Source: Gammaproteobacteria bacterium
Lineage (GTDB): Bacteria > Pseudomonadota > Gammaproteobacteria > Steroidobacterales > Steroidobacteraceae
NCBI GenBank assembly: GCA_003132425.1
Contig: PKXS01000043.1
Location: 83,188 to 131,094, forward strand
Length of the DNA stretch: 47,907 bases
Direction of reading: 5' to 3'
The position numbers were made by a program, and so were the translations under genes. The notes beneath the pieces are model-generated. The model had not been told where the DNA came from. It worked only from the letters and a program-made list of their open reading frames with translations, and ran no database searches. Shown here in pieces: positions 5,301-18,784 of this stretch (positions are counted from its first letter, which is position 1; the number at the start of each line of letters is the position of its first letter).

Positions 5301-6515
5301 TTACCAGCGGTAGACGCTGGTGACGAAGCCTTTTGGGTACGTATTGGGCCCCGGCGGGAGTTCGACGAAACCATCGGTTCCCGCCAGGCTCAGGAAGTCT
5401 CCTGATCCGTTGGGCGGCCGCGGAGCGGCCCAGGGACGGCCCCAATCGCCGTGTTCGATGGCAACAGGCAAGAAATACGTCAGCGCATGCTGGAATGTGA
5501 CCGGGGCCGCCAGCGCGAGACGCTCCGGTTGTCCGCGCTTGGTGCCCATGGCTTCGGCGATGGCGGGAATGACATAACGGATTAGGCACACCAGTGTGGA
5601 GACCGGATTGCCCGGGAGCCCAAATACCGCTTGGCCCTGCGGGCCGATGCCAAACCACATGGGCCTACCAGGCCTTTGAGCGATGTTGTGAAATACTTGT
5701 TGCACGCCAAGCTGCATCAGCACTTTGGGGACCAGATCAAATCTGCCCATAGACACCCCGCCGCTCAGCACCACGACCTCGTGGGTTGTGAGATGCAGCG
5801 CCAGCCGCTCGCGTAGCAGATTCTCGTCATCCGGCACATGGTCGTCGCCGATACGGCCAAATCCTCGCTTACGCAGCGTGGCCGCGACCGCGTAGGCATT
5901 GGAACGGCGCACTTGGAAGTCGGCAATGGGGTCACCCGGTTCGATGAGCTCATCGCCGGTCGAGACGACTATCACCGCCGGTTGACTGCTGACACGCACT
6001 CGCGCCATGCCCGCGGAGGCCGCGACGGCGATTTCCGGTGCGCGCAGCAGCGTTCCGGTCTCCAGCAATAGCGCGCCTTGTCGGCTGTCGCTGCCGCGGC
6101 GATGCACGTTGTGGTACGGGGCGGTCACCACCGCGGTCCTCAACGATGCGAAGCCGCCGGCAACGTCGAGCTGTTCGACGGGGATCACGCAATCGCTCCC
6201 CGAAGGCAGAATCGCGCCAGTCATCACTTCGATCGCGTTGTCGCCGTGAGTCAGCTTGAGCGCCGGCGAGCCTGCACCTTGAGTTGCCTGAATGCGAAAG
6301 CGCTTCAGACCGCGACGCAGAGCCTCGCTGTCCACCGCGATTCCGTCCATGGTGACGCGATCGAACGGTGGTTGATCACGCTCCGCGTAAATATTTTCGC
6401 GCAGTGTCCCACCGACGCACTGCGTCAGCGGCAGTGATTCGATCGGCAAACACGTTAGCCGAGAGTTGATTGCCTCTTCGGCCAGACGCGGCGTGAGGAG
6501 CGTTCCAGCCTGCAT
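5301..6515 (-). CDS. moeA: Molybdopterin molybdenumtransferase MoeA
   Basis: A 404-residue protein with the MoeA layout: the N-terminal linker domain with RDQPPFDRVTMDGIAV, the MPT-binding core with VSTGDELIEPG and LSGGVSMGRFDLV, and the GLPGNPVSTLVC signature, then a C-terminal beta domain. It inserts molybdate into adenylylated molybdopterin to finish the basic cofactor. The ATG at 6515 begins the operon. Upstream lies a strong 9-bp hairpin (6528-6550) and then the gene for a small secreted protein. The promoter is not obvious in the 43-bp gap, so transcription may start further upstream. Confidence 0.96.
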   Translation of the reverse strand: MQAGTLLTPRLAEEAINSRLTCLPIESLPLTQCVGGTLRENIYAERDQPPFDRVTMDGIAVDSEALRRGLKRFRIQATQGAGSPALKLTHGDNAIEVMTGAILPSGSDCVIPVEQLDVAGGFASLRTAVVTAPYHNVHRRGSDSRQGALLLETGTLLRAPEIAVAASAGMARVRVSSQPAVIVVSTGDELIEPGDPIADFQVRRSNAYAVAATLRKRGFGRIGDDHVPDDENLLRERLALHLTTHEVVVLSGGVSMGRFDLVPKVLMQLGVQQVFHNIAQRPGRPMWFGIGPQGQAVFGLPGNPVSTLVCLIRYVIPAIAEAMGTKRGQPERLALAAPVTFQHALTYFLPVAIEHGDWGRPWAAPRPPNGSGDFLSLAGTDGFVELPPGPNTYPKGFVTSVYRW

Positions 6516-6527
6516 GCATTGAAGGAC

Positions 6528-6550
6528 GCGGCGGATCGCACATCCGCCGC
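6528..6550 (-). terminator. Strong hairpin between the secreted-protein gene and moeA
   Basis: A perfect 9-bp stem, GCGGCGGAT at 6528-6536 pairing with ATCCGCCGC at 6542-6550, with a 5-nt loop. It lies 8 nt after the stop of the upstream gene and 12 nt before the moeA start. No clear run of T follows on the minus strand, so it may be a weak terminator, an mRNA 3' stabiliser, or a structure in the moeA leader. Confidence 0.5.
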
Positions 6551-6558
6551 GCTCAAAT

Positions 6559-6939
6559 TTACTGCTTCTGTTGCTTAGCTTTAAAAATCTTCAACTGCTC
6601 ATTGAAGCGCCCAACAACCGCTTGCAGCTCGTCGACGGCGGCGTTGTTCTTCTGGTCCATGATCCTTAGCTGTTCGTCCGACTTTTTCTTCTCGTCAGGC
6701 GTCAGCTTGGCAGGATCCTTGGGCGCAGCAGCATCCCTCTCGAGCTTCAGACAATCCAAGTAGGCGTTCATTTCACCGTTGTAGCGATCGAAGTCATGCT
6801 TAGCGGCGATCATTTGGTCGCGCGTCGCAGTATTGCCGTCAGGAGGCGCATCCGGGGAGCGCGGATAGGAGCAAGTCGCGTGCGCCTGGGCAGCCGTTCC
6901 CAGTGCTAAAACCAATATGAGCGGTATCCAAGCCTTCAT
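6559..6939 (-). CDS. Small secreted protein of unknown function
   Basis: A 126-residue protein with a clean Sec signal (MKAWIPLILVLALGTAAQAHA) and a probable cleavage after AHA. The mature part is charged and helical: proline-rich PRSPDAPPDG, then a likely coiled coil through YLDCLKLERDAAAPKDPAKLTPDEKKKSDEQL to the Lys/Gln-rich end. Two cysteines in the mature region could form a disulfide. The start has a good ribosome site (GAGGA, about 6 nt before the ATG at 6939). I do not recognise a family. It is likely periplasmic. Confidence 0.75.
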   Translation of the reverse strand: MKAWIPLILVLALGTAAQAHATCSYPRSPDAPPDGNTATRDQMIAAKHDFDRYNGEMNAYLDCLKLERDAAAPKDPAKLTPDEKKKSDEQLRIMDQKNNAAVDELQAVVGRFNEQLKIFKAKQQKQ

Positions 6940-7931
6940 CGTGAGTCCTCTAGTTATCGGAATGAATTTGTTATTCGGGCCAAGGAGATCTTACGGCCAA
7001 GGGCTTAAGGCTGCCAGCGTTCCACAGGTTAGCCGTAAGTATATGATTTCATATCTGTAATTGGAGCTACTTCGGTGTGGCTAAGTTCCCGCATCGGACC
7101 GCCGATTGCCTCATTCGGGCTTTTTGAACTAAACCCAGGGCGTGTTCGCGGGCGCCGGCGCTTGCGAATCCTGAAGTCTGTACAGTTGCGCCATACGGGG
7201 AGTAAACGTTGGCTTGCAGGAGGATTCCGTGAGGTTGATCGCGCGCCACGCTAGCATGGTAACCGCCGGACTCGCGGCGGTTCGCGTGGATGCGGCTTTC
7301 TTCCTTCTAGCTCGTTTCCAACGCGATTCTGACATTTCCCGCCGACGCAACTCCCTGCTCCGGTAGTCATCGGGTCAGCAAATCGCCCTCAGGCCACGCC
7401 CCAAGATAAGGGGAGAAGGCACGCGAGGCACCCTCTCCCCACAAACATAACCGATGCCTCAAGCGGCCAGCACCTCCTCCGCGAGGTCCCAGAGCCGACT
7501 GTTGATCCGCAGGTCCTCGCGAATCGAAGTGATGCGGCGCGTCCGTGACCGTCGCCCGCTGGCGGCCAAACGCATCAGGCCGCCTCGCAGGATGTTCTCC
7601 TGGATTTATGTTGTGATGGCGGTTATGTGGAGAACACTGCAGCAGCACGGCCAGATCCGCTTTCACGCAGCCGTCACCTCCGCATAACTTGGGGCAGATT
7701 CCGGGGATGGGTGAGTAGTGCAGGTGGGTTCCCGTGCTCCTCCAGGCAGCGGTTCGCTAAGTGCCCCATCTCACCACTCGTGAGCGTCCGCTATCTGGCA
7801 CCCAATCAGATCGCACGCTTCGCCTGTGTCCGCAAAGCCTGCTTGAGAGCCCAAGGTTAGTTCCTGCAACAGTGGCGGTTGCCTCTGCTAGGATTAGGAG
7901 GATTGGAAGCGTCAGTCGAGCAAAATTGGCA
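6940..7931. other. Gene-poor region of about 1 kb
   Basis: No convincing gene. Short open frames on both strands lack ribosome sites and family-like sequence. Around 7457-7573 the minus strand reads a plausible 38-codon frame ending TSIREDLRINSRLWDLAEEVLAA, which may be the tail of a lost gene. A hairpin with a 7-bp GGGGAGA/TCTCCCC stem lies at 7410-7440 but has no T-tract. The region may hold decayed mobile DNA. Confidence 0.4.
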
Positions 7932-8297
7932 ATGGTGGGCACAACATTGATAAAGGCACTTCAAGGCGTTCCTATACTGGTTTTACTGCTGATAGCAACC
8001 ACGCTGGAAGCAAGCGGCGACGCCATCGTCCGAATGGCGATCTACAATCACGTCGGTTTTATTCGTATAGGGCTGTTTCTCATTGGCGCCACGCTGCTGT
8101 TGGGCTATGGATCGTTTCTCAACGTGGCGCCGCTCGACTTTGGGCGTGTGGTCGGGCTCTACATTGCGACGCTATTTGTGGTCTGGCAGGTCATTAACGC
8201 CATCGCCTTCCGATCGTTCCCGACGATGCCAATCTTGGTCGGTGGCGCCTTGGTGATCGCTGGAGGTGCAATTGTCAGTTTTTGGAAGCCCGCTTAG
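7932..8297 (+). CDS. Small four-helix membrane protein, unknown function
   Basis: A 121-residue protein made almost wholly of four hydrophobic helices: about residues 8-26 (GVPILVLLLIATTLEASGDA), 40-60 (IGLFLIGATLLLGYGSFLNV), 67-87 (VVGLYIATLFVVWQVINAIAF) and 95-115 (ILVGGALVIAGGAIVSFW). Conserved-looking features inside membranes are the EASGDAIVR segment and GYGSFLN. The size recalls small multidrug-resistance or EamA half-units, but I see no decisive motif. The ATG at 7932 lies just before the first helix; an upstream extension to 7761 is open but of low-complexity Arg-rich composition and is not favoured. It stands alone between two gaps. Confidence 0.7.
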   Translation: MVGTTLIKALQGVPILVLLLIATTLEASGDAIVRMAIYNHVGFIRIGLFLIGATLLLGYGSFLNVAPLDFGRVVGLYIATLFVVWQVINAIAFRSFPTMPILVGGALVIAGGAIVSFWKPA

Positions 8298-8439
8298 GAA
8301 AATTCAAAATACCCCACTACCGATCGGCGATCACGGACAAAAGAGCTGGCTTAATCGTGACACTTTTCTTCGTTCCTGATTTGACCCCACCAACCGCATC
8401 GGGCCGAGGTCTAGGCTCACCCGAGATGCGACGGCGGAC

Positions 8440-10218
8440 GTGATGGACGGCGAGGAGAGCCGACAATTGCCGCTGGCGCAGCTCTCCCTCCTGGCGCTCG
8501 GCCTAGGCGTCGTCACTGGCCTTGGTGCCGTGGCTTTTCGGGATCTGATCGGCCTGATTCACAACCTACTGTTCACCGGTCACGCGCTGGTCCAATACGA
8601 CGCCAACATCTTTACCGCACCCTCGCCGTGGGGGCCGCTGGTGATTCTAGTCCCTGTGCTAGGCGCCGTCGGCGTGACCTTTCTGGTGACTAATTTCGCG
8701 CCTGAGGCCAAGGGCCACGGGGTCCCCGAGGTGATGGACGCAATCTATTACAAGGGCGGGGTGATCCGGCCCGTTGTGGCGTTGGTCAAATCTCTTGCGT
8801 CGGCCCTCGCGATTGGCAGCGGTTCATCAGTCGGGCGGGAAGGGCCAATCATCCAGATCGGCTCGGCGCTCGGCTCGACGCTGGGGCAGATCGTCCGTCT
8901 GCCATCGGGCCAGCGGATCGCGCTCGTCGCTGCGGGTGCAGGCGCAGGCATCGCGTCCACCTTCAATACTCCAATCGGTGGCGTGATGTTCGCTATCGAG
9001 CTGATGATGCCCGAGGTGAGCGTAGCGACGTTCCTTCCAGTCGCGATCGCGACGGGGACTGCAACGTTCGTGGGTCGCTGGTTCTTCGGCGATATGCCCG
9101 CCTTCCACGTGCCCTCGCTTCAGGCCATGGCGGTCGATCCGAGTGCTCTTATCGTGCTTGCCCTGTTCGCTGTGCTGGGCGCTCTCACTGGCGTCGCCGC
9201 AGGAGGTTTCACCCAAGGACTGTATTTGCTCGAAGATATCTTCGATCGGATCAGGTCTCGCTATCTACGGCACATGCTGGGCATGCTGATTCTTGGTGCG
9301 CTGATGTACCTGCTCTTACGCACCCTGGGTCAATACTACGTCGATGGCGTCGGCTACGCGACCGTTCAGGCGGTGTTAGTAGGGCAGATCTCGTCATTCT
9401 GGCTGCTGGGGCTATTAGCCGTCTGCAAGGCCTTGGCGACCTCGCTCAGTCTGGGCTCGGGCTCATCGGGCGGCATCTTTTCGCCATCGCTGTTCATAGG
9501 CGCGACCCTTGGGGGCGGCTTTGCGGCCCTGCTGAACGCGGCCGGCCTTCCGATTCAGCTGAGCGTCCCTGCTTTCGCCATGGTCGGCATGGGAGCGATG
9601 GTGGGTGGCGGAACGGGCGCGGTGATGACCGCCGTCACAATGATCTTCGAGATGACGCGCGACTACAGCATCGTGATGCCGATGATCGTAGCGGTAGCGA
9701 TGAGCATCGGCGCGCGCCGGATGCTCTCTCGCGAGACCATCTACACCTTGAAGCTTGTGCGACGCGGCCGAGCCATTCCAAAGGCGCGGCACGCCAATAT
9801 GTTCCTCGTCCGCTCCGCACGCGAAGTGATGGACGCCGATATCCAGGTCTTACCGGCGGACGCGAGTTTCGATGACTATCTGCGTCAGCCCGAGCACGCC
9901 GGACGCCTGCGCCACGTCGTGGTCACCGACAAGGGTCACATCTACGGGGTGATCCGCGTCAATACAGGCCTCCGCCGAGGGTTGGAGGGCGCCCACACCG
10001 GGGTGAGCCTAGGCGATGTCGCGAGCCGCAATTTCACCGTGGTGGGCGAGGATGAGACCGCCTTCGACGTAATCCGGCGCATGTGGCGCCGGGGTGCCAT
10101 CATGGCGGTAGTCGTACGTGGGCGCGGGGTCCCACGTGGAAGCGACGTTGCCGGCGTGATCACCAAGGAGCACGTCGCTGACTCGGTCGCGGACAGCGTC
10201 AAAGCCTACCCTGAATAG
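8440..10218 (+). CDS. CLC-family chloride channel/antiporter with two C-terminal CBS domains
   Basis: 592 residues from the GTG at 8440, or one less from the ATG at 8443. All three selectivity-filter segments are visible: GHGVP (92-96, usual GSGIP), GREGP (132-136, with the gating glutamate of transporters kept) and GGIFSP (344-349). The ClC core fills residues 15 to about 430 with ten or more hydrophobic helices. The last 130 residues carry a CBS pair (VMDADIQVLPADASF, and VGEDETAFDVIRRMWRRGAIMAVVV) that usually senses nucleotides. It lies in the inner membrane and likely exchanges chloride for protons. The true start could be a little upstream, since the frame is open for 60 bp without an ATG. 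Confidence 0.93.
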   Translation: MMDGEESRQLPLAQLSLLALGLGVVTGLGAVAFRDLIGLIHNLLFTGHALVQYDANIFTAPSPWGPLVILVPVLGAVGVTFLVTNFAPEAKGHGVPEVMDAIYYKGGVIRPVVALVKSLASALAIGSGSSVGREGPIIQIGSALGSTLGQIVRLPSGQRIALVAAGAGAGIASTFNTPIGGVMFAIELMMPEVSVATFLPVAIATGTATFVGRWFFGDMPAFHVPSLQAMAVDPSALIVLALFAVLGALTGVAAGGFTQGLYLLEDIFDRIRSRYLRHMLGMLILGALMYLLLRTLGQYYVDGVGYATVQAVLVGQISSFWLLGLLAVCKALATSLSLGSGSSGGIFSPSLFIGATLGGGFAALLNAAGLPIQLSVPAFAMVGMGAMVGGGTGAVMTAVTMIFEMTRDYSIVMPMIVAVAMSIGARRMLSRETIYTLKLVRRGRAIPKARHANMFLVRSAREVMDADIQVLPADASFDDYLRQPEHAGRLRHVVVTDKGHIYGVIRVNTGLRRGLEGAHTGVSLGDVASRNFTVVGEDETAFDVIRRMWRRGAIMAVVVRGRGVPRGSDVAGVITKEHVADSVADSVKAYPE

Positions 10219-10502
10219 GCTCGCCTAGCCGCTCCATGCCGTGTTGACGAGATTCGATCAAAAACGTGCCGATATCTCTTTGAAACGCACTCGACCGATT
10301 GCAGCGCTGTCGCAGAGCGCACTTGACTGGCAACCGCGGCCGGCTGGCGTAGGCGCGAACGGCGGCTTCGGCGTGAGTAGTTGAGTCGTAGCAATGCTTG
10401 CTTCTGGCCGATCGCGACCGGAACCGGCGATGCCGTCAGGCCCTGCGCGGATCGGCGGCGCCGTCACGGCGTGCCCTAGCACAAGTTGGCTGCCTCGTGG
10501 CA
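10219..10502. other. Intergenic DNA without recognisable genes
   Basis: Between the CLC gene and the recombinase remnant. Only shadow frames rich in Arg and Pro are present; no RNA, terminator or repeat stands out. Confidence 0.4.
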
Positions 10503-10757
10503 TTACAGGCGCCGAAGCCAGCGTGTCAGTTCCGTGCGGTGGAGCGCCATTCCGCCGGTCTTTGGCGCGCCGAGAACATCTGGAAACACCTGCGCCAACG
10601 CCTGGCGTTTAAGATCGAGATCGGCGCGTGCGTAGCGCATTGTCGTTTGAAGGCCGGAGTGACCCAGAAACTGGCTGATGGTCCCGAAGTCCACGCCAGA
10701 CTTAAGTAGATGGATTGCCGTGGTGTGTCTCCTATATCTCGGCAGACATAGGAGGCA
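10503..10757 (-). pseudogene. C-terminal fragment of a tyrosine recombinase
   Basis: An open stretch of 84 codons closed by an in-frame stop upstream (10758-10760). It reads RRHTTAIHLLKSGVDFGTIS, then QFLGHSGLQTTMRYARAD, then LDLKRQALAQVFPDVLG. These are the box-II catalytic Arg-His, the second catalytic His of LGH and the nucleophilic Tyr of the phage integrase family. The N-terminal three quarters, including the box-I Arg, are missing. It is a remnant of a mobile element of the IntI/XerC-like group and is not expected to be active. Its facing neighbour at 10886 is the start of another recombinase. Confidence 0.85.
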
Positions 10758-10885
10758 CTATTTCTCGTGGCCAACTATGTCTAGTGGAGATGCTAAAACC
10801 CTTAAATTTACGGCAAACGCGTTTACCCGACCCGATATAGTCTTGGCTCCTTGCTTCCCAGATTGCTCTGGGAAAGGAGCCGCTC

Positions 10886-11183
10886 TTGAGATACCGCATC
10901 AACGAGCAGATGGTTCTACTGTGCATGCCGAAGCAAGGACCAGACGGTCCTATCGCGCCGTATCTGCATTCGTTTGCGCAGTCTCTGAGTGAACAGGGGT
11001 ACGGGCGTTGTTATCTGCGCCGTCAGTTAATGCTCGGCGCTTGTTTCAGCCATTGGCTTAAGCGAAGACGTGTTCGATCTCGCTGGATCAAGTGAGCATG
11101 CCTCGCGATATTTGCGATATCGCCATCGTGATCGGCAGGCCAACGCAGGCGATTCGGCCGCCCTCGATCATGGGTGTTTTTGA
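10886..11183 (+). pseudogene. N-terminal fragment of a second tyrosine recombinase, frameshifted
   Basis: The first frame (10886-11095) reads the SAM-like core-binding domain of tandem or trio recombinases: PYLHSFAQSLSEQGYGRCYL followed by RRQLMLGACFSHWLKRR. The matching continuation lies in another frame from about 11067: VFDLAGSSEHASRYLRYRHR then DRQANAGDSAALDHG, ending at a stop at 11181-11183. So the gene carries at least one frameshift and is cut off before its catalytic domain. It is oriented opposite to the 10503-10757 fragment, so the two pieces are unlikely to be halves of one gene. Together they mark an eroded integration site. Confidence 0.75.
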
Positions 11184-11459
11184 CTAAAACCGCGAAAAGT
11201 CAATTTTAGAACAGCTGCGCAACTACGCGAACGATGCCACTTAGCCGAGCCTCACGGCGGACGGAGAAGCCGTGGGATGCCAGTACATTCATTCCCCAGT
11301 CCTGTAAACCGGCATCCTTGATTGACCAGATTTGAGATCATATCGGCGGGCAAGCCGGACCAGGGAATTCTGGGAATATTTTCAAAACGACCAATGGATT
11401 GCTGCGTAACCAGCTGATCAGAATTGGACGCCGACGTATGGTCAATGTCCAACGCCGGT

Positions 11460-12306
11460 TCACACACTTGGATGATGGAAAGCACCATCCACGTACTTTC
11501 CAAACGATGCGTGCGGTCCAGGGCAACTACATCGGACCCATCCCGGTGGAACAATATGCCTATGACGTTCTTCCTCAGCTAGCTGCTCGCGCCGACGGCG
11601 GTCCTCCTCCGCTCGTTCCTCTTCTTGCCGAACAGCGCGCCGTTCGTCCTCTGCTTCGATACTGACCTTCAATGCCTTGAGGTATGTTGATGCCAACTCG
11701 AATCGGTCATGCGAGGGTGTTGGATAGCCCAGTCCCTGAGCGACGTCCGCGATAAAGTCGATGCAATTAGATTGGTCACGGCCAGAGATCCCCGTTCCGA
11801 CCAGATTAAATTGCTTCAGATCCCAAACTTCCACTTTTTCTAGAACTGCCCTAACTTGCTCGTCCGTCACCGGCACCTTAACCGAAAGCTCGGTTTCTGA
11901 CGGCCTCAGAAGAGATTTTTTTGTATTCGCTAGCATTGCAATCGTCATTAGCATTACAGCGATATTCCGGTTTAAGCATACCGGGCCCTTTAATCATCCC
12001 GACCCCGTCCTTAGGATAATAGCCATGTGCATCCTCTTTAGGACCATGGTCAGTTGGGTGCGAGATGATCATGAAAATATGACTTGCGGAAATGCAGTGT
12101 GCATTCGGGCCAACAAGATTGACGGGATTCAATTCGGTGCCTCGCGCAACCAACGTAATGATTGTCGTCGACGTTTCGGGCGCTGCAGAACAAGTCCGTG
12201 CAATGCACAGCATCAAACAGGCAGCGGTCGAAGCAAGCGTGACTAGACGCAAAGCAAAATACTCTCCCTGTTCGAATTTTGGATTTGGAATCCGCCTAGC
12301 CAACAA
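11460..12306 (-). pseudogene. Secreted permuted papain/NlpC-like hydrolase, split by a frameshift at a 7-T run
   Basis: Two overlapping frames together make one sensible protein. The 5' frame (12306 to 11878) has a signal peptide (about FALRLVTLASTAACLMLC then a CSA-APE cleavage site). It is followed by SASHIFMIISHPTDHG, DAHGYYPKDGVG and CNASEYKK. The 3' frame (to 11460) continues with VPVTDEQVRAVLEKVEVWDL, QFNLVGTGISGRDQSNCIDF and IADVAQGLGYPTPS, then a Glu/Arg-rich coiled coil. A His motif (SHIFM) before a Cys motif (NCIDF) is the order of circularly permuted NlpC/P60- or DUF4105-like enzymes. The frames meet at seven T's (11916-11922; A's in the mRNA). This is a one-base deletion, slippage site or sequence error. 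The functional family is an inference. Confidence 0.6.
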
Positions 12307-12480
12307 TTGAGTCTACGCGTTCATAGGGGGCTGTTCCTATCTTGATAAAATATGTCATCAATATAGAGTAGCTGGCAGTCGCCGGACTCGTCTTGCGTCG
12401 GCGAGACTCCCCGCCGGCCTCGAATTGAGCCACATCACTAGGACATCCAAGAATTGACTGCACCGGCCGGTGTATCAACA

Positions 12481-13716
12481 TCAGTGGGCCATTCTCGCGA
12501 TCAGAACCGCGTTGGTGCCCCCGAAGGCAAACGAGTTCGACATTACGGCCCGCAAACGAGCGATGCGTGCGTGACCTGATACGTAATCGAGATCACATGA
12601 GGGATCCGCCGCGTCGAGATGCATTGTCGGTGGCACGATATTCCGCGTTAGACTCATTACCGCAACCACGAATTCCAGAGCTCCCGCCGCTCCGAGCAAG
12701 TGTCCATGCATCGACTTCGTGGAGCTCACTGGAATGGCGTGCGCGCGTTCAGCGAACACCACCTTGATCGCGGCTGTCTCCACCGCATCGTTTTGCAAGG
12801 TTGCAGTGCCGTGTGCATTGATGTAATCAATAGCCTCCGGTGCCAAGTTCGCCGCACGGAGCGCTGATTGCATAGCCTTTGCCTGTCCCTCGATGCTGGG
12901 TCGCGTGATATGGGCCACATCGCTGGCGAGGCCGTATCCCGCGAATTCCGCGTGAATGATCGCACTCCGGGCAAGTGCGTGATCCCACTCCTCAAGCACC
13001 ACGAATGCAGCGCCTTCCCCAAGTACCAGGCCCGTCCGCGTAGCGGCAAAAGGGCGACAGGAAGTGGACGCGTCGTGCGCGTCTTCGGTCGCCAACGTCC
13101 GCATGGCATCCCAAGCACGCAGCACGCCGACGACCAAGGGCGCCTCAGCGCCACCGGCCAGCATCACGTCGCCGTCGCCATGCTGGATTCGCCGCGCCGC
13201 CTCGCCAAGCGCTACCGCTGAGGACGAACAGGCCGTCGAGTAGGTCAACATAGGCCCGTGAAGACCGTAATCAATGCCGATCCAAGCGGCCGGCGCGTTG
13301 GTCATCGCGTTGAGCACGCTATAAGGCTTGATCCGATCCGATTTCTGGGCGTACAGCGTGTGATATCCCTCCTCCGTCGTTTCAGCGCCTCCCATGCCCG
13401 TACCGACGAAAACGCCGCATCGCTCGCGCGTTTCAGCGGCGAAGTCCAATCGGGAGTCCACGATCGCTTGTTGAGCCGCCACCAAGGCCAACTGACTGAC
13501 GCGATCGAGCAGGCGTAATCGGGGTGGCTCGAAGTAGTTCCTGCCGTCGAAGTTCGCTGACGCGCCGATGGGCGAGCGCAATCCCTGCGAGATCGAGGAA
13601 GGCAAGCGATGCACGCCCGAGCGTCCCGCGACGAGATTTCTCCAAAACTCTTCGACGGAATTGCCGAGAGGTGCGACGACACCCATGCCTGTCACCGCGA
13701 CTCGCCGCAGTGTCAT
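12481..13716 (-). CDS. FabF-like beta-ketoacyl-ACP synthase in a type III PKS operon
   Basis: A 411-residue condensing enzyme of the FabF/KAS II type. The triad is visible: Cys163 in YSTACSSSA, His302 in NAHGTAT and His339 in SMHGHLLGAAGA. The GGTNA end motif (FAFGGTNAVLI) is complete. It extends an acyl-ACP with malonyl-ACP. Its start overlaps the acyl carrier protein stop by 4 bp (ATGA), and it is the last gene of a five-gene coupled operon headed by a type III polyketide synthase. It probably builds or elongates a special acyl chain for that pathway rather than serving general fatty acid synthesis. No chain-length-factor partner is present. Confidence 0.93.
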   Translation of the reverse strand: MTLRRVAVTGMGVVAPLGNSVEEFWRNLVAGRSGVHRLPSSISQGLRSPIGASANFDGRNYFEPPRLRLLDRVSQLALVAAQQAIVDSRLDFAAETRERCGVFVGTGMGGAETTEEGYHTLYAQKSDRIKPYSVLNAMTNAPAAWIGIDYGLHGPMLTYSTACSSSAVALGEAARRIQHGDGDVMLAGGAEAPLVVGVLRAWDAMRTLATEDAHDASTSCRPFAATRTGLVLGEGAAFVVLEEWDHALARSAIIHAEFAGYGLASDVAHITRPSIEGQAKAMQSALRAANLAPEAIDYINAHGTATLQNDAVETAAIKVVFAERAHAIPVSSTKSMHGHLLGAAGALEFVVAVMSLTRNIVPPTMHLDAADPSCDLDYVSGHARIARLRAVMSNSFAFGGTNAVLIARMAH

Positions 13717-13994
13717 GTGTCGGTCGAAGCTTCCAATGAATTGAGATCGCGCATCGCAGGGTGCCTCGCGAGGAGGCTGTCGATATACCGAACGACGTCG
13801 CCTACGGTAAGTAGGTCGGTAGGTGTGTCGTCCGTGATTTTCACTTTGTATCGATCTTCGATCTTAAACATGAGCTCCAGCACGCTTAAGGAATCGAGCC
13901 GCAAGGTTTCCAGAGTAGCTTCGGGCATGATCTGCTCGCGGGCGACGCAATAATCGCGCGTTAAGATATCCACCAGTGTGTCCAATGTACTCAT
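13713..13994 (-). CDS. Acyl carrier protein
   Basis: A 93-residue ACP. The phosphopantetheine site is Ser35 in LRLDSLSVLELMF, followed by the acidic recognition helix and ITDDTPTDLLTVGDVVRYID. It carries acyl chains as thioesters for the partner ketosynthase encoded next. Its start overlaps the flavoprotein stop by ATGA and its stop overlaps the ketosynthase start in the same way, so stoichiometric coupled production is likely. It has about 15 extra residues at the C-terminus compared with AcpP. No phosphopantetheinyl transferase is encoded in the window. Confidence 0.95.
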   Translation of the reverse strand: MSTLDTLVDILTRDYCVAREQIMPEATLETLRLDSLSVLELMFKIEDRYKVKITDDTPTDLLTVGDVVRYIDSLLARHPAMRDLNSLEASTDT

Positions 13995-15256
13995 AGGATT
14001 CCTTCGAACAGGAGCGACTGAGCGACGGGCTTACTAGCCTTGCCGGCGAGGTGAGCTGCCGCGGTCAAAACCTGGGGACAATCCCCCAACAACCTTGTAA
14101 CCGGCAGGCTCAGCACCGGGCGCATTGCGATGTGAGCGAAGATTGCCGCGAGGCGCAGCCGCAGTGCAAAGACGCTCCGCCAAGCAGAACGATACGCTCG
14201 ATGAATCTCGAGCGCACGGGTCGCATCGATCGCGCGGGCAGGCTGCTTGATAAGGTAGCCGGCCAACAGAAAGGCGGATTGCAGTGCCATGGTAATGCCT
14301 TCGCCGATGAGAGGATGCGTCTCGCCGGCGGCGTTGCCGACGGAAAATAATCGGTCGGACTTCCTCAGCCGAATTTGAGGCCGAAGCGGTCCTATCGATA
14401 GCCAAGGCTCTGACCGCCGCGCGCCGGCTAGTATTTCCCTGACCCCGCGACAGGAAGCGCGCAAATACAGTTCGAACGCGGCCCCAGCGGAGGTGCCGGG
14501 TAGGTGACCGCGCCACCCCGCTAGGGTGTCGCGACGAATACAGCCCGCGAGCGTCAACCGTCGATCTTCCGCCATAACCAAGCCCCCATACCCACCCCGA
14601 AACGAAAGCACAGGCAATAGACCCTGCGGTATGGTTGCGTTAACAAAACTTGCTTTGAAGCCGAATAGGTCGGACCCACGCCGTGGCTTACGAGACGTAG
14701 GACGGGTACAAGCTTGAGGCCCCGTCTCCCAAGATCCATGCGCGTCTACGATGATCGGCACGCGCCGTATAACCGATTCGTGCAAGCGGCCCGGCTGCGC
14801 GTAATCTTGAGCACTCAGTTGGATGTCACACTCGAAATTTCCCAATTCTCCCCTTACCGATCGCACTCGGCCTGGCTGAATCAGAATAACGCCAAGCTCG
14901 ATCGCCCGATTGACCAGAATCGCGTCCAGTTGATCGCGTCCCAGGGCTTGGCCGTATCGGTAAGGTCCGCCGGTACAAGGAGGCAAGTGGGCAATGAGGG
15001 TCGCAGCGCCGCTCATCCACCCAACTTGAGTCAATTCCGGCCCTGCTCGGTCCCGAACGGCGGTGGCGACGCCGAGCTGGTCGAGCAGCGCGAGAGCGGC
15101 GGCCGACAGGCATTCACCACAGACCTTCTGCCGCGGATAGCAGTTTTTTTCCACGAGAATCACGCGCCATCCGGCTAATTTGAGCAATATCGCCGTCGAT
15201 GCGCCGGCCGGCCCGGCTCCAATGACCAAGACATCGGCATCGATGCCGTTACCCAT
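13991..15256 (-). CDS. FAD-dependent oxidoreductase, geranylgeranyl reductase / aromatic hydroxylase fold
   Basis: A 421-residue flavoprotein. The N-terminal dinucleotide fold is GAGPAGAST with EKNCYPRQKVCGECLS. The second FAD motif is LFSVGNAAGETHPLIGEGIT followed by MALQSA. These match the p-hydroxybenzoate hydroxylase / geranylgeranyl reductase superfamily. It could hydroxylate or oxidise the product of the type III polyketide synthase, or reduce an isoprenoid or acyl double bond. The gene starts 8 bp inside the end of the methyltransferase gene and ends in an ATGA overlap with the ACP gene. The C-terminal 100 residues are hydrophobic and Arg-rich and may touch the membrane. The exact reaction is not known. 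Confidence 0.88.
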   Translation of the reverse strand: MGNGIDADVLVIGAGPAGASTAILLKLAGWRVILVEKNCYPRQKVCGECLSAAALALLDQLGVATAVRDRAGPELTQVGWMSGAATLIAHLPPCTGGPYRYGQALGRDQLDAILVNRAIELGVILIQPGRVRSVRGELGNFECDIQLSAQDYAQPGRLHESVIRRVPIIVDAHGSWETGPQACTRPTSRKPRRGSDLFGFKASFVNATIPQGLLPVLSFRGGYGGLVMAEDRRLTLAGCIRRDTLAGWRGHLPGTSAGAAFELYLRASCRGVREILAGARRSEPWLSIGPLRPQIRLRKSDRLFSVGNAAGETHPLIGEGITMALQSAFLLAGYLIKQPARAIDATRALEIHRAYRSAWRSVFALRLRLAAIFAHIAMRPVLSLPVTRLLGDCPQVLTAAAHLAGKASKPVAQSLLFEGIL

Positions 15257-15971
15257 GTGTTAGGCGCACGTTGTTTTGCGCCGCAATGAAGCCGTGAGAA
15301 AACGGCAGCACGCGAAATTCCTGAGTCCACCATGTCTTATCGGTGAATGGCCACGCAGCCGTGATCTCATCGTCAATAAAGCCCGCATCAACACTTTTGA
15401 CCGCGTCTTCCCGGGTGACCGCGTTCGTTCCGAGGAGGCCAATCAATCGGCTGCCCACCTTTGCGAGCATTTCTCGTCGGGGTTCAATCGCAATGAATGC
15501 GCGGCTTTGCGAGACCACACCGCGCAGTAGCTCCCGCAATTCTGACTCCTTAAAATGATGGAGAAACAACGTGGCGACAGTTAGATCGTAGCGCTGGCGG
15601 GCGGATTGCCGCGCCCATATCAGGACATCCTCGCATACCGTAGTCACCTCCCATCCGTGCCTGCGATAACTTTCGACCGTTTCAGAGTTCACGATGCGTT
15701 GACGATCAAGGAGTGTGAGCTTCACGCCAGGCCAGCGAGGTCTTACCGCGGCCGCCAAGCGAAGCAATAAGCTCCCGTCGCCTGCGCCCAGTTCCAGGAT
15801 GCTCTTTGGGTGTGCCGCGAGCCGAAGACGGGACAACGCATGGTTAAGTGCAGAAATTGACCGCATCGCGCGGTGCACACGCCGCAGGTCACGGCGCGAC
15901 CGTCGTGCCTTCGGATCTTCGGGAGTAAGATTGTCGAGCACTTCCGGACGTACACATCGAGGACTCGTCAT
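15249..15971 (-). CDS. SAM-dependent methyltransferase of the type III PKS operon
   Basis: A 240-residue class I methyltransferase with motif I ILELGAGDGSLLLRLA, the acidic loop after LTLLDRQ, CEDVLIWA and motif IV-like DLTVATLFLHHF. Such proteins often O- or C-methylate polyketide or quinone rings. The ATG at 15971 lies 10 nt after the polyketide synthase stop; a longer frame upstream only runs antisense to that gene. The end overlaps the flavoprotein start by 8 bp. By its place between a type III synthase and a flavoprotein it likely methylates the aromatic product, parallel in logic to the Streptomyces griseus srsABC set, although SrsB is a different methyltransferase type. Confidence 0.87.
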   Translation of the reverse strand: MTSPRCVRPEVLDNLTPEDPKARRSRRDLRRVHRAMRSISALNHALSRLRLAAHPKSILELGAGDGSLLLRLAAAVRPRWPGVKLTLLDRQRIVNSETVESYRRHGWEVTTVCEDVLIWARQSARQRYDLTVATLFLHHFKESELRELLRGVVSQSRAFIAIEPRREMLAKVGSRLIGLLGTNAVTREDAVKSVDAGFIDDEITAAWPFTDKTWWTQEFRVLPFSHGFIAAQNNVRLTHG

Positions 15972-15981
15972 GGACAATGAC

Positions 15982-17040
15982 TCACTCGACCGCCAGCAGC
16001 GCGCCGTGACACGTGAACCCCGCACCGAACGAGGACAGCCACCACCATCCACCCGGCGCGCGGTCGCGGAGTGCAGCCCCAAGTACAAAATAGACAAACG
16101 CACTGCTTAGGTTACCGTACCGGCGAAGCGCCTCTCGACTGTAACGCAGTGCTTCGGGAGACAGACCTAGATGCGCCTCGAGTGCGAGCAAGACATCGCG
16201 ACCGCCAGCATGGAAAATCCACTCGCTGATCTGGCTTTGCCTAAGGTCGGCGCGCTGAAGAGTCTTAGTCAAGATGTCCGCCGCATGTTGTGCGGCGAGT
16301 CGCGGTACGGCACGGGTCAAAATGTTTCGCAGCATTCCGTCTTGATGCTCGAACCGAAGCGCAGCCCGCTCAGACGGATCGATAAATGAGGTGGTTTGCT
16401 TCCATTCGATTCGGCGGTGCGCCGCGAGCGGGCTGCGAGACAAGACAGCTGCTCCGGCCCCATCGCCGAATAGGCATGCGCTGATCAAAACGCCCGGATC
16501 ATCGTCAAGGTACATCGCCGCACTGCAAACCTCGACGCAAATTGATAAGACGTGGTTACATTGCCCAGCGGCTAACAGAGCACTTGCGAGCTGCCAGTTG
16601 GGAAGTGCTCCGGCGCATCCTTGGCCGACCAAATCGAACGCAAGGATATCGTTTCGCAAGCCCAATTGCTCAATCACGTAACCGCTTAGTGCCGGACACA
16701 AATACCCCGTGCACGTAGTGACGATGACCGCGTCGATCTGATCCGCACAGACGCCGGCAGTACGCAATCCGGATAGAGCTGCGGCAGACGCCAGTGGCGG
16801 TGCATGGGCGGCAAAGCGGCGGTGCAAGACGTTTGGATCGATGGCGAAGACCTCATCGAGGGAATCAACGCTGAGCCACCGCTCCTCAATTCCATTATTC
16901 CGGGTTAGAACCAGTTTCGCGATCGCATGGGAGCGCGCGTCGAGACGCACAAACCAATCGGAGGCTCTGAACGCGTTCCAACACGCGTCCTTCGAGTAGC
17001 ATTTCTCGGGAAGCGCAGTACCAATCGCATTTAGGAACAT
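15982..17040 (-). CDS. Type III polyketide synthase (chalcone/stilbene synthase superfamily)
   Basis: A 352-residue thiolase-fold enzyme. The type III triad is Cys142 (DLVGQGCAGALPNWQLA), His277 (IFHAGGRDVL; the usual HPGG is HAGG) and Asn310 (RRYGNLSSAF). The GAGF segment near the end is the C-terminal family loop. It condenses an acyl starter with malonyl units and cyclises the chain to a pyrone, resorcinol or phloroglucinol. I chose ATG 17040, which has AAGGG just upstream. An in-frame GTG at 17061 would add seven residues but has no ribosome site. It leads the five-gene operon, and its product would then meet the methyltransferase and flavoprotein encoded downstream. Confidence 0.93.
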   Translation of the reverse strand: MFLNAIGTALPEKCYSKDACWNAFRASDWFVRLDARSHAIAKLVLTRNNGIEERWLSVDSLDEVFAIDPNVLHRRFAAHAPPLASAAALSGLRTAGVCADQIDAVIVTTCTGYLCPALSGYVIEQLGLRNDILAFDLVGQGCAGALPNWQLASALLAAGQCNHVLSICVEVCSAAMYLDDDPGVLISACLFGDGAGAAVLSRSPLAAHRRIEWKQTTSFIDPSERAALRFEHQDGMLRNILTRAVPRLAAQHAADILTKTLQRADLRQSQISEWIFHAGGRDVLLALEAHLGLSPEALRYSREALRRYGNLSSAFVYFVLGAALRDRAPGGWWWLSSFGAGFTCHGALLAVE

Positions 17041-17685
17041 GTGCCCTTCTCGCTTATCCACGGACCGCTACAGAGCGCGCCGCGAGTTCAGGATATATCA
17101 TCTCTCACAGGTGGGCGTGGACGAGATTGCTAGCGGGCGAGACTTAATAGAAAACGTTTGCCCCGCGAGGTATCACCGGACGCCATGATTAAAAGATGGA
17201 TACCCAGCCCTCTACGGCATATTACCGTAGTGCGCTCGGTCCACCGGCGCATGCGCCGCGCATCGGCGCAAAGCCACTGGGTCGGCTTCAGTTATCAAGG
17301 TTAGCGCAGCGACGGGTCTAATGGGTGCGAGCTGAGCCGGTGGTCTCGACGTCGGCCGTGAGGTGCCACACGCTCTTGTAGAGCCCGAACCCTAGCACGA
17401 AGATCACGATACGCGATCGATCCAGCAGTACTTCGACCATAGGAACATCACGCATGCCGTGCGCTACACCGAGCGCAGTTCCAAGCGGTTTAAGAATTTC
17501 TGGAAAGATTGAGACACATCCCACCGAAGATTCCCTTCCTCGCACGCATCCCCCAAGGACTCGCGCGCGGATCCAATGGTCGTCTCAGTACCTTGGACAT
17601 GAAGCGGCATGGAGGGCTTTTCCCGTGCGCGATTTGCGAACATGCGTGCGGCGCCGTAGTGAACCCGGTAAACTTCCGGGCGGTT
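17041..17685. other. Region between the PKS operon and tRNA-Arg
   Basis: It should hold the promoter of the PKS operon at its left end, but I see no strong sigma-70 pair. A 75-codon minus-strand frame at 17318-17545 ends with one hydrophobic segment (SRIVIFVLGFGLYKSVWHLT) and could be a remnant of a small membrane protein. It has no ribosome site and I do not call it a gene. Confidence 0.4.
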
Positions 17686-17762
17686 GCGCCCGTAGCTCAG
17701 CTGGATAGAGCACTGCGCTTCGAACGCAGTGGTCGGCGGTTCGAATCCGTCCGGGCGCGCCA
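17686..17762 (+). tRNA. tRNA-Arg (anticodon TCG)
   Basis: A complete cloverleaf of 77 nt. The acceptor stem GCGCCCG pairs with CGGGCGC, followed by discriminator G and encoded CCA. The D stem is GCTC/GAGC. The anticodon stem is CTGCG/CGCAG around loop CTTCGAA, giving anticodon TCG, which reads CGA. The T stem is GGCGG/CCGTC (one G-T pair) around TTCGAAT. It stands alone. tRNA 3' ends are common integration sites, and a damaged copy of its 3' half lies at 33403-33537. Confidence 0.97.
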
Positions 17763-17827
17763 AAATTTTTGGGTCCGTTCCGGTCAGATGGCTGATGGCG
17801 CCATGCGCCTAAAACCCAATCCGTCGG

Positions 17828-18784
17828 TTAGCGTGCGAGGGCCGCGTCCACCATTCCGATGGTCCCCAACCATGTTTCCACCAATCGCGGCCATTGCGCG
17901 ATCGGCAACTTGCTCGTCCGCAGGCTGAAGGCGTGGCCGCCTTGCGCGTACAGGTGCATTTCAGTGGGGACGCCGGCTTTCTGCAGCGCGACATAATAGG
18001 CGAGAGACTGCTCCACGCCGTCCACGTGGTCGTCCTCGGCTTGGAGTAGAAAGGTGGGTGGCGAGTCGGCGCGTACGCGGATGTCCGGGCGAAGGGTCAA
18101 ATCCGTCTCCTCGCGGCTGGCCTGGTCCTCGTCCTCGTGCGCCCACAGGTGGCCGGGGTAGAGGGCGATGGCGAAGTCGGGGCGGCAGCTCAGCTGGTCG
18201 GCGGCATCCACCGGGGCATACGTCCGCTGCGCGAAATGCGTACTGACCGCGGCCACCAAGTGCCCGCCGGCAGAAAAACCGATCACGCCGACTTTGTGCG
18301 GATCGACATGCCACTGCGCCGCGTGCTGCCGCACCAGCCCCAACGTGCGCTGCGCGTCCTGCAGCGCCGTCTGCACCTTCGGGTATACGCGCCGTTGGTT
18401 CTCGTGGTCCCACCACGGACCCGAGCCCGGCACGCGGTACTTCAGTAGTACGCAGGTGATACCGCGTGATGTCAGCCAGTCGCAGATCTCCGTGCCCTCT
18501 CCACCCATGGCGAGAACCCGGTAACCCCCGCCGGGGAACACCACCATTGCCGCCCCGGTGTTGCGCCCCTTGGCCGCATACACCGTCATTGTCGACCGGC
18601 TGACATCGTAAGCCTCTCCGCCGGGATCGACAGACTCCGGTTTCGGGTCGGGTATCGCATCGGGTACCGCGCCTGGCCATATCGGCACTTGCGTATGTCC
18701 CGGAGAAGGCTGCCAGGAATCCGCCCGCGCACTTGCGCCGCCGGTCGCCGCCGCCACACACAGAGCAAAGATCAACGTCTGCAT
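17828..18784 (-). CDS. Secreted alpha/beta hydrolase (acetylxylan-esterase / BD-FAE-like)
   Basis: A 318-residue protein with a Sec signal (MQTLIFALCVAAATGGASARA). The oxyanion-type VVFPGGGY motif is followed by the nucleophile Ser171 in GFSAGGHL, the acid Asp251/252 in LQAEDDHVDG and His284 in GGHAFSL, a full catalytic triad. Relatives remove acetyl or other ester groups from plant polysaccharides. The chosen ATG at 18784 has GGAG 6 nt upstream; ATG and GTG codons at 18790 and 18796 are alternatives. In this locus it probably trims O-acyl groups from the glycan in the periplasm. It is the last minus-strand gene before tRNA-Arg. Confidence 0.87.
   Translation of the reverse strand: MQTLIFALCVAAATGGASARADSWQPSPGHTQVPIWPGAVPDAIPDPKPESVDPGGEAYDVSRSTMTVYAAKGRNTGAAMVVFPGGGYRVLAMGGEGTEICDWLTSRGITCVLLKYRVPGSGPWWDHENQRRVYPKVQTALQDAQRTLGLVRQHAAQWHVDPHKVGVIGFSAGGHLVAAVSTHFAQRTYAPVDAADQLSCRPDFAIALYPGHLWAHEDEDQASREETDLTLRPDIRVRADSPPTFLLQAEDDHVDGVEQSLAYYVALQKAGVPTEMHLYAQGGHAFSLRTSKLPIAQWPRLVETWLGTIGMVDAALAR

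Follow-up and report, generated by a model that had tools for sequence, protein, structure and literature searches.

A five-gene cassette that couples a type III polyketide synthase to an acyl carrier protein and a FabF-like ketosynthase in beta- and gammaproteobacteria

The window analyzed here, a stretch of 47,907 nucleotides, is part of contig C135 of a Steroidobacteraceae assembly (4.08 Mb, 146 contigs). Five adjoining genes on its minus strand form the cassette:

17040-15982, minus strand: type III polyketide synthase (T3PKS), 352 aa; Pfam Chal_sti_synt N- and C-terminal domains over the cut-off
15971-15249, minus strand: class I SAM methyltransferase (MT); Pfam Methyltransf_25 over the cut-off
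15256-13991, minus strand: FAD-dependent oxidoreductase (FAD); Pfam FAD_binding_3 over the cut-off
13994-13713, minus strand: acyl carrier protein (ACP), 93 aa; PP-binding domain with a DSL phosphopantetheine site
13716-12481, minus strand: FabF-like ketosynthase (KS), 411 aa; ketoacyl-synt N- and C-terminal domains, Cys-His-His triad intact

The T3PKS and MT genes are separated by a 10-nt gap, and the MT/FAD, FAD/ACP and ACP/KS junctions overlap by 8, 4 and 4 nt, respectively. The open reading frames, Pfam assignments and junctions thus bore out the original prediction of five genes coupled through 4-8 nt overlaps and one 10-nt gap. No ketoreductase, dehydratase, acyl ligase or phosphopantetheinyl transferase (PPTase) was found among the five cassette genes, and a Pfam scan of these and of five flanking proteins detected neither a type I fatty acid synthase nor a PPTase. 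Promoter and terminator scans at the locus yielded matches below the shuffled expectation. A tRNA-Arg (tcg) gene is located at 17686-17762 in the window.

The synthase contains the catalytic residues Cys142, His277 and Asn310 and scored 41.1 bits on PF00195 and 57.2 bits on PF02797 (cut-off 27). In the alignment of its relatives, Cys was present in 55 of the 57 rows, and His and Asn in 56 each; the missing residues correspond to gaps in truncated rows. The C-terminal motif is FGAGF, where type III synthases usually have GFGPG. The structure model (pLDDT 92.2) aligned with the 50 matches listed, including PKS11, chalcone and 2-pyrone synthases, with TM-scores of 0.86-0.92 (query length). The closest solved structure by TM-score among these matches was M. 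tuberculosis PKS11 (4jao, 0.92), titled an alkylpyrone-type enzyme; at 24% identity it is little informative on chain length. Identity to the window synthase was 52-73% in 34 aligned clade members and 25-29% in five T3PKSs from other records. Matches in the plasmid collection comprised one record at 60-80% identity and 235 below 60% (40 matches listed). On sequence identity, the synthase belongs to a separate clade of its own. Its deep placement in the T3PKS tree was not used because reference branches reached up to 10 changes per column.

Profile searches pointed in two further directions. On PRK09352, three clade members scored 86-109 bits, as compared with 47-73 bits for seven other T3PKSs, and judged by profile the clade resembles KASIII more than other type III synthases do. 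The annotation of a Caballeronia plasmid labels its synthase a KASIII C-terminal protein, so that the enzyme may be overlooked in at least one record. The best NCBIfam match was the DpgA model NF042429, but the score (149.9 bits, cut-off 425) led us to reject this identity. A Streptomyces plasmid protein reached 632.6 bits and passed the cut-off. The match is uninformative because five of six other non-DpgA T3PKSs scored 132-174 bits too; the sixth, annotated as PhlD, had 67.8 bits.

For the MT, NCBIfam PRK06202 remained below its cut-off. The flavoprotein model (pLDDT 88.2) had the halogenases ChlB4, PltA, Mpy16 and CmlS as its nearest folds, with 3-hydroxybenzoate 6-hydroxylase, an aromatic hydroxylase, further down; the TM-scores were modest (0.54-0.75, query length). 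Flavin-dependent halogenases carry a W.W.I motif. Among the 46 cassette flavoproteins, GGYGG was found in all and W.W.I in none, and we therefore rejected a halogenase identity despite the fold neighbours; the predicted flavoprotein is likelier to be an oxygenase or a dehydrogenase. The KS residues Cys, His, His and Lys were each conserved in 41 of 41 rows, and the Asp-Ser-Leu site of the ACP in 43 of 43. With catalytic residues intact wherever the rows reach, the cassette enzymes look active.

A search with one genome per species yielded 57 related loci, in which genes were called using profiles built from these sets. All five genes occurred in the same order and on the same strand at 38 loci, all of them in beta- and gammaproteobacteria. 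The cassette is therefore no local accident. The carriers are soil and water bacteria and include Oxalobacteraceae, Comamonadaceae, Sphaerotilaceae, Burkholderiaceae, Alcaligenaceae, Steroidobacteraceae and a Thiotrichaceae metagenome-assembled genome (MAG); Paralcaligenes ureilyticus and Azohydromonas lata are among the cultured ones, and the closest relatives of the window cassette are Gammaproteobacteria MAGs. A crude ORF picker, which also picked antisense frames, revealed no ORF cluster common to more than five loci outside the cassette stretch; some clusters were checked further, and a larger cluster around the cassette was rejected. A tRNA integration site was rejected likewise: tRNA calls were obtained in 7 of the 44 relatives scanned, within 1.5 kb upstream of the synthase only at L042, L043 and L045, so that a tRNA is no general neighbour of the cassette, and a repeat search gave no convincing att-like pair.

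The remaining loci carry variants. Six proteobacterial loci have T3PKS-MT-FAD without an adjacent ACP-KS (L016, L018, L024, L026, L038 and L039), and two have T3PKS-MT-FAD-ACP and no KS (L014 and L044). In two near relatives, T3PKS-ACP-KS stands without the cassette MT and FAD (L002 and L003). Five Verrucomicrobia loci contain T3PKS-MT and a weak FAD-like gene (38-48 bits). Contig ends cut L027, L030 and L053, and L058 is distant (25% identity). Placing the six trio-only rows on the T3PKS tree calls for three or more state changes. The cassette is thus modular, the synthase also occurring with MT-FAD only or with ACP-KS only. In the genomes of L002 and L003, no close homologue of the cassette FAD was found elsewhere. 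At L003, tailoring may have been replaced rather than lost, because a methyltransferase-family gene and a Trp_halogenase-like flavoprotein lie within 4 kb of the cassette.

The five-gene cassette has apparently spread horizontally. The Caballeronia plasmid mentioned above carries the same five genes, and a site-specific integrase is annotated upstream. In the Steroidobacteraceae, the family of the window, the synthase was found in 7 of 120 genomes, counting the window's own genome and one partial match, which makes it an accessory trait in this family. A PF00195 search of the window's own genome returned one match. Some of the 120 genomes are evidently assemblies that are also among the 57 loci (e.g., G097 is L003), as contig numbers and positions match, and the two sets of counts are not independent.

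The ACP-KS pair was compared with the housekeeping pair of the same genome, where fabF and an ACP gene adjoin on contig C96. The two pairs are alike in that the cassette KS is of the same subfamily, has the same triad and is encoded beside an ACP gene. The cassette KS and ACP are, however, only 41% and 26% identical to this FabF and AcpP, whereas the cassette KS is 53-74% identical to the KSs of other cassette members, and the ACP about 32-64% identical to other cassette ACPs among the matches listed. On the FabF equivalog model TIGR03150, the cassette KS scored 446.8 bits, below the cut-off of 493.75, as compared with 631.8 bits for the genome's own FabF. In a tree of 67 KSs, 11 FabF-type reference rows (9 housekeeping and 2 others) were split from the other 56 with a support of 100/99. 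The cassette ACP-KS pair is therefore distinct from the housekeeping fatty-acid pair. ACP/KS is also the tightest junction of the cassette, never exceeding 7 nt in the 41 loci measured, with a median of -4 (start codons chosen by script). According to the original prediction, it would have counted against the proposal if the ACP and KS matched a general fatty-acid operon found apart from the synthase in relatives. This objection largely fails because the pair differs from the general one, with the qualification that related pairs do occur apart from the synthase in some genomes.

Eight proteobacterial genomes, each with one synthase match, lack a KS beside the synthase. Four of them encode, at another site, a KS that falls within or close to the cassette clade and adjoins an ACP gene (L138, L139, L141 and L147). 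L139, from the genome of L014, has a KS that groups with Azohydromonas rows and with a Rubrivivax and a Hydrogenophaga row, and the L014 synthase groups with Azohydromonas rows as well. The L138 KS clusters with another lineage than the T3PKS of the same genome (L024), so that mixing within the MAG is possible. The KSs of L141 (genome of L039) and L147 (genome of L016, partial) are situated near the base. Besides FabF-like KSs, the other four genomes contain only KSs of other groups, at 47-50% identity. At L018, L026 and L038, these belong to a 49-50% group that is common in genomes without the synthase, the FabF-like KSs there being of 40-43%; a dedicated ACP-KS is thus not always needed by the trio. 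In the five Verrucomicrobia, the KSs are all of 37-44% identity, and the ACP-KS pair is absent. In one family, at least 22 of the 143 genomes without the synthase likewise contained KSs of 46-50% identity. Together with the L138 mismatch, these weaken the unlinked pairs as a general proof of dependence. The pairs of L138, L139, L141 and L144 adjoin non-biosynthetic genes, and since pairs stand alone in some genomes, the ACP-KS may serve another pathway there. An ACP-KS pair is usual beside the synthase, but it is not universal.

Of the 39 complete loci, which include the window, 35 were used to compare distances; the correlation between KS and T3PKS was 0.80, and all ten cassette gene pairs gave values of 0.76-0.84. 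These correlations, together with the gene order shared by 38 of the 57 loci, uphold the earlier claim that the five genes belong together. Across 13 genomes, the correlation with T3PKS was 0.845 for KS, 0.643 for ACP and 0.415 for the FabF control. Among the 120 genomes from the window's family, a KS of at least 57% identity was found in exactly the 7 that carry the synthase; at E <= 1e-104, one KS of 48% identity in a genome without synthase was added. Another family (150 genomes) had the synthase in 7 and a KS of at least 55% in 5, all among those 7. Over both families (270 genomes), at the thresholds used, a KS of at least 55% was seen in 12 genomes, each with the synthase; such a KS was absent from 2 of the 14 genomes with the synthase. 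Linkage of the genes would by itself lead one to expect co-occurrence. The distance correlation relative to the FabF control is better evidence; correlated distances would arise from linkage alone too, and this comparison cannot separate linkage from function. The ACP-KS pair does share descent with the synthase.

The order of the first three genes is known from other organisms. Streptomyces griseus srsABC has the order T3PKS-methyltransferase-oxygenase, as in the cassette; to our knowledge, it has no ACP-KS. T3PKS, methyltransferase and FAD oxidoreductase genes also stand side by side in two Deinococcus records and one Psychrobacter record, the Psychrobacter synthase being on the opposite strand; these synthases (25-29% identity) fall outside the window clade on a tree with very long reference branches. 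A closer parallel than srsABC is found in the cyanobacterial hierridin-like hid clusters, which combine a T3PKS, a methyltransferase and an oxidoreductase and of whose two orders the rarer, hidC>hidA>hidB, equals T3PKS-MT-FAD (PMC8086630). The cassette shares with them the presence of these three genes in one operon. In planctomycetes, an operon of methyltransferase, oxidoreductase and T3PKS goes with alkylresorcinols; expression of the synthase genes in C. glutamicum yielded pentadecyl- and heptadecylresorcinols, and the G. maris methyltransferase and oxidoreductase genes together led to the addition of one methyl group (PMC10896814). Unlike the cassette, neither the hid nor the planctomycete clusters are described with a dedicated ACP or KS in the accessible sections (PMC8086630, PMC10896814).

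The premise of the original prediction that type III synthases do not need an ACP was too strong. Germicidin synthase (GCS) and ArsB/ArsC take acyl-ACP (PMC6274091), and CylI uses ACP-bound chains (PMC8086630). The Azotobacter vinelandii ars operon encodes the fatty acid synthase ArsA, the T3PKSs ArsB/ArsC and the PPTase ArsD (PMC4824345), and the acyl group is reported to pass directly to the cysteine of the T3PKS (PMC6274091, PMC4824345). The cassette resembles ars in that a source of acyl-ACP, here a putative one, is encoded with the synthase (PMC6274091, PMC4824345). In the cassette, by contrast, the supply would come from one FabF-like KS and a discrete ACP, with no type I fatty acid synthase and no PPTase in the operon. 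The cylindrocyclophane cyl cluster similarly combines a free-standing ACP (CylB) with CylI, but cyl-type clusters also encode type I PKS modules, an AMP-binding enzyme and a halogenase (PMC8086630), which the five cassette genes lack. The original prediction had not recognized the combination as a described pathway, and we too found no description, in the open PMC literature, of a T3PKS accompanied, in this gene order, by a discrete ACP and a FabF-type KS of its own, or of the cassette product. MT-FAD-synthase trios and ACP-fed T3PKSs are already known; as far as this literature shows, the dedicated discrete ACP and FabF-type KS are the new part.

With the above results in hand, we propose that the cassette makes a methylated and oxidized type III polyketide, a phenolic lipid in character, from an acyl starter carried by the dedicated ACP, with tailoring by the MT and the flavoprotein (probability roughly 0.5). 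The KS and ACP would elongate an acyl chain on this ACP, or keep it bound there, and the host fatty-acid synthase would lend malonyl transfer, reduction and dehydration. The discrete ACP and extending KS would thereby play the part of ArsA. The T3PKS would take the acyl-ACP starter, add malonyl-CoA units and close a resorcinol- or pyrone-type ring; the direction of the hand-over, the chain length and the ring type are all predicted. The MT and flavoprotein may then methylate and oxidize the ring, the flavoprotein reaction being putative. A role of the ACP-KS on the synthase side is supported by L002 and L003, which keep T3PKS-ACP-KS and drop the cassette MT and FAD.

Two alternatives appear unlikely to a similar degree. 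The trio could be a hierridin-like alkylresorcinol pathway fed by general fatty-acid synthase, the ACP-KS being dispensable and shifting only chain length or flux. Such an arrangement fits the six proteobacterial loci without adjacent ACP-KS, the Deinococcus and Psychrobacter trios and the alkylresorcinols obtained from the planctomycete synthase genes in C. glutamicum (PMC10896814); we doubt it, given that most members have an ACP-KS correlated with the synthase and that a related pair is retained at another site in four genomes.

The direction could also be reversed. A small aromatic acid made by the T3PKS would be loaded onto the ACP, methylated and oxidized there, and the KS would extend it into an aryl-primed chain, comparable to the priming of type I PKSs by DpgA-type synthases. 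ACP-KS does come last in the gene order, and among the nearest folds of the flavoprotein are ChlB4, PltA, Mpy16 and CmlS, several of which act on carrier-bound groups. Clade 1 synthases such as DpgA and Ken2 start chains later extended by type I PKSs (PMC8086630). This route is improbable in our judgement: L002 and L003 retain T3PKS-ACP-KS without the cassette tailoring genes, the five genes include no loading ligase, and the synthase is not a DpgA. A third option, in which the ACP-KS is part of some other lipid pathway and accompanies the trio through linkage alone, is very improbable, as the coupled pair and the gene order are kept across classes and all 12 genomes with a KS of at least 55% identity (at the thresholds used) have the synthase, even though some pairs adjoin non-biosynthetic genes and KSs of 46-50% occur in synthase-negative genomes.

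Within the preferred reading, in which the dedicated ACP supplies the acyl starter, a narrower version is tentative. The cassette might represent a widespread hybrid type II/type III class of polyketide pathway, in which the ACP-KS is a minimal builder that feeds only its own synthase, and does so directly, and in which a halogenase-fold enzyme oxidizes the ring. If so, the synthase clade, whose Caballeronia plasmid member is annotated as KASIII, would rely on a separate carrier protein of its own. The cassette offers a natural test case for carrier-protein choice by type III synthases, both for whether it takes place and for how, since related synthases occur with a dedicated ACP-KS, without one, or with an ACP-KS minus the tailoring genes. 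In addition, it points to a conserved product, probably lipid-like, in many beta- and gammaproteobacteria.

Pairs of an ACP and a FabF-like ketosynthase (KS) other than that of the cassette were found in three fetched loci:

L144, 6646-8134
L145, 7425-8931
L146, 1993-3502

In the KS tree, the ketosynthases of these pairs formed a clade of their own. The L144 pair is neighbored by genes that include members of the FtsK, MgsA and pyridine-redox families, and the putative counterparts of these neighbors in L145 are of similar length.

The window's own genome carries another cluster, apart from the cassette:

L075, G000:C42:50000-69900, about 6264-18724 of the locus

It encodes an MMPL exporter, two ketosynthase-domain proteins, an AMP-binding enzyme, an LpxL-type acyltransferase, a short-chain reductase and an ACP, a content that we take to resemble an aryl-polyene or xanthomonadin-type pigment cluster.

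tRNA genes were called near the cassette and in a relative:

window, 17686-17762, tRNA-Arg (tcg), upstream of the cassette at a distance of about 650 bases
L040 (Azohydromonas aeria), 9774-9846 and 10318-10393, tRNA-Arg and tRNA-SeC (ARAGORN)

Any tRNA call was obtained in 7 of the 44 relatives scanned; in three of the seven, a call lies upstream of the synthase and no more than 1.5 kb from it. The L040 calls sit at and inside the FAD oxidoreductase gene, and are probably false.

A flavoprotein gene and an oxygenase gene stand beside the KS in some synthase-bearing relatives:

L003, 10652-12043, strand opposite to the KS, Trp_halogenase/FAD_binding_3 flavoprotein
L043, 12575-13783, strand opposite to the KS, Rieske/VanA_C oxygenase (same group in L031 and L045)

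The flavoprotein immediately follows the KS in L003, a close relative that lacks the cassette methyltransferase and FAD oxidoreductase. The oxygenase gene, assigned through a domain scan of one member, occurs shortly past the KS in the related L043, L031 and L045, where it may provide an additional tailoring step.
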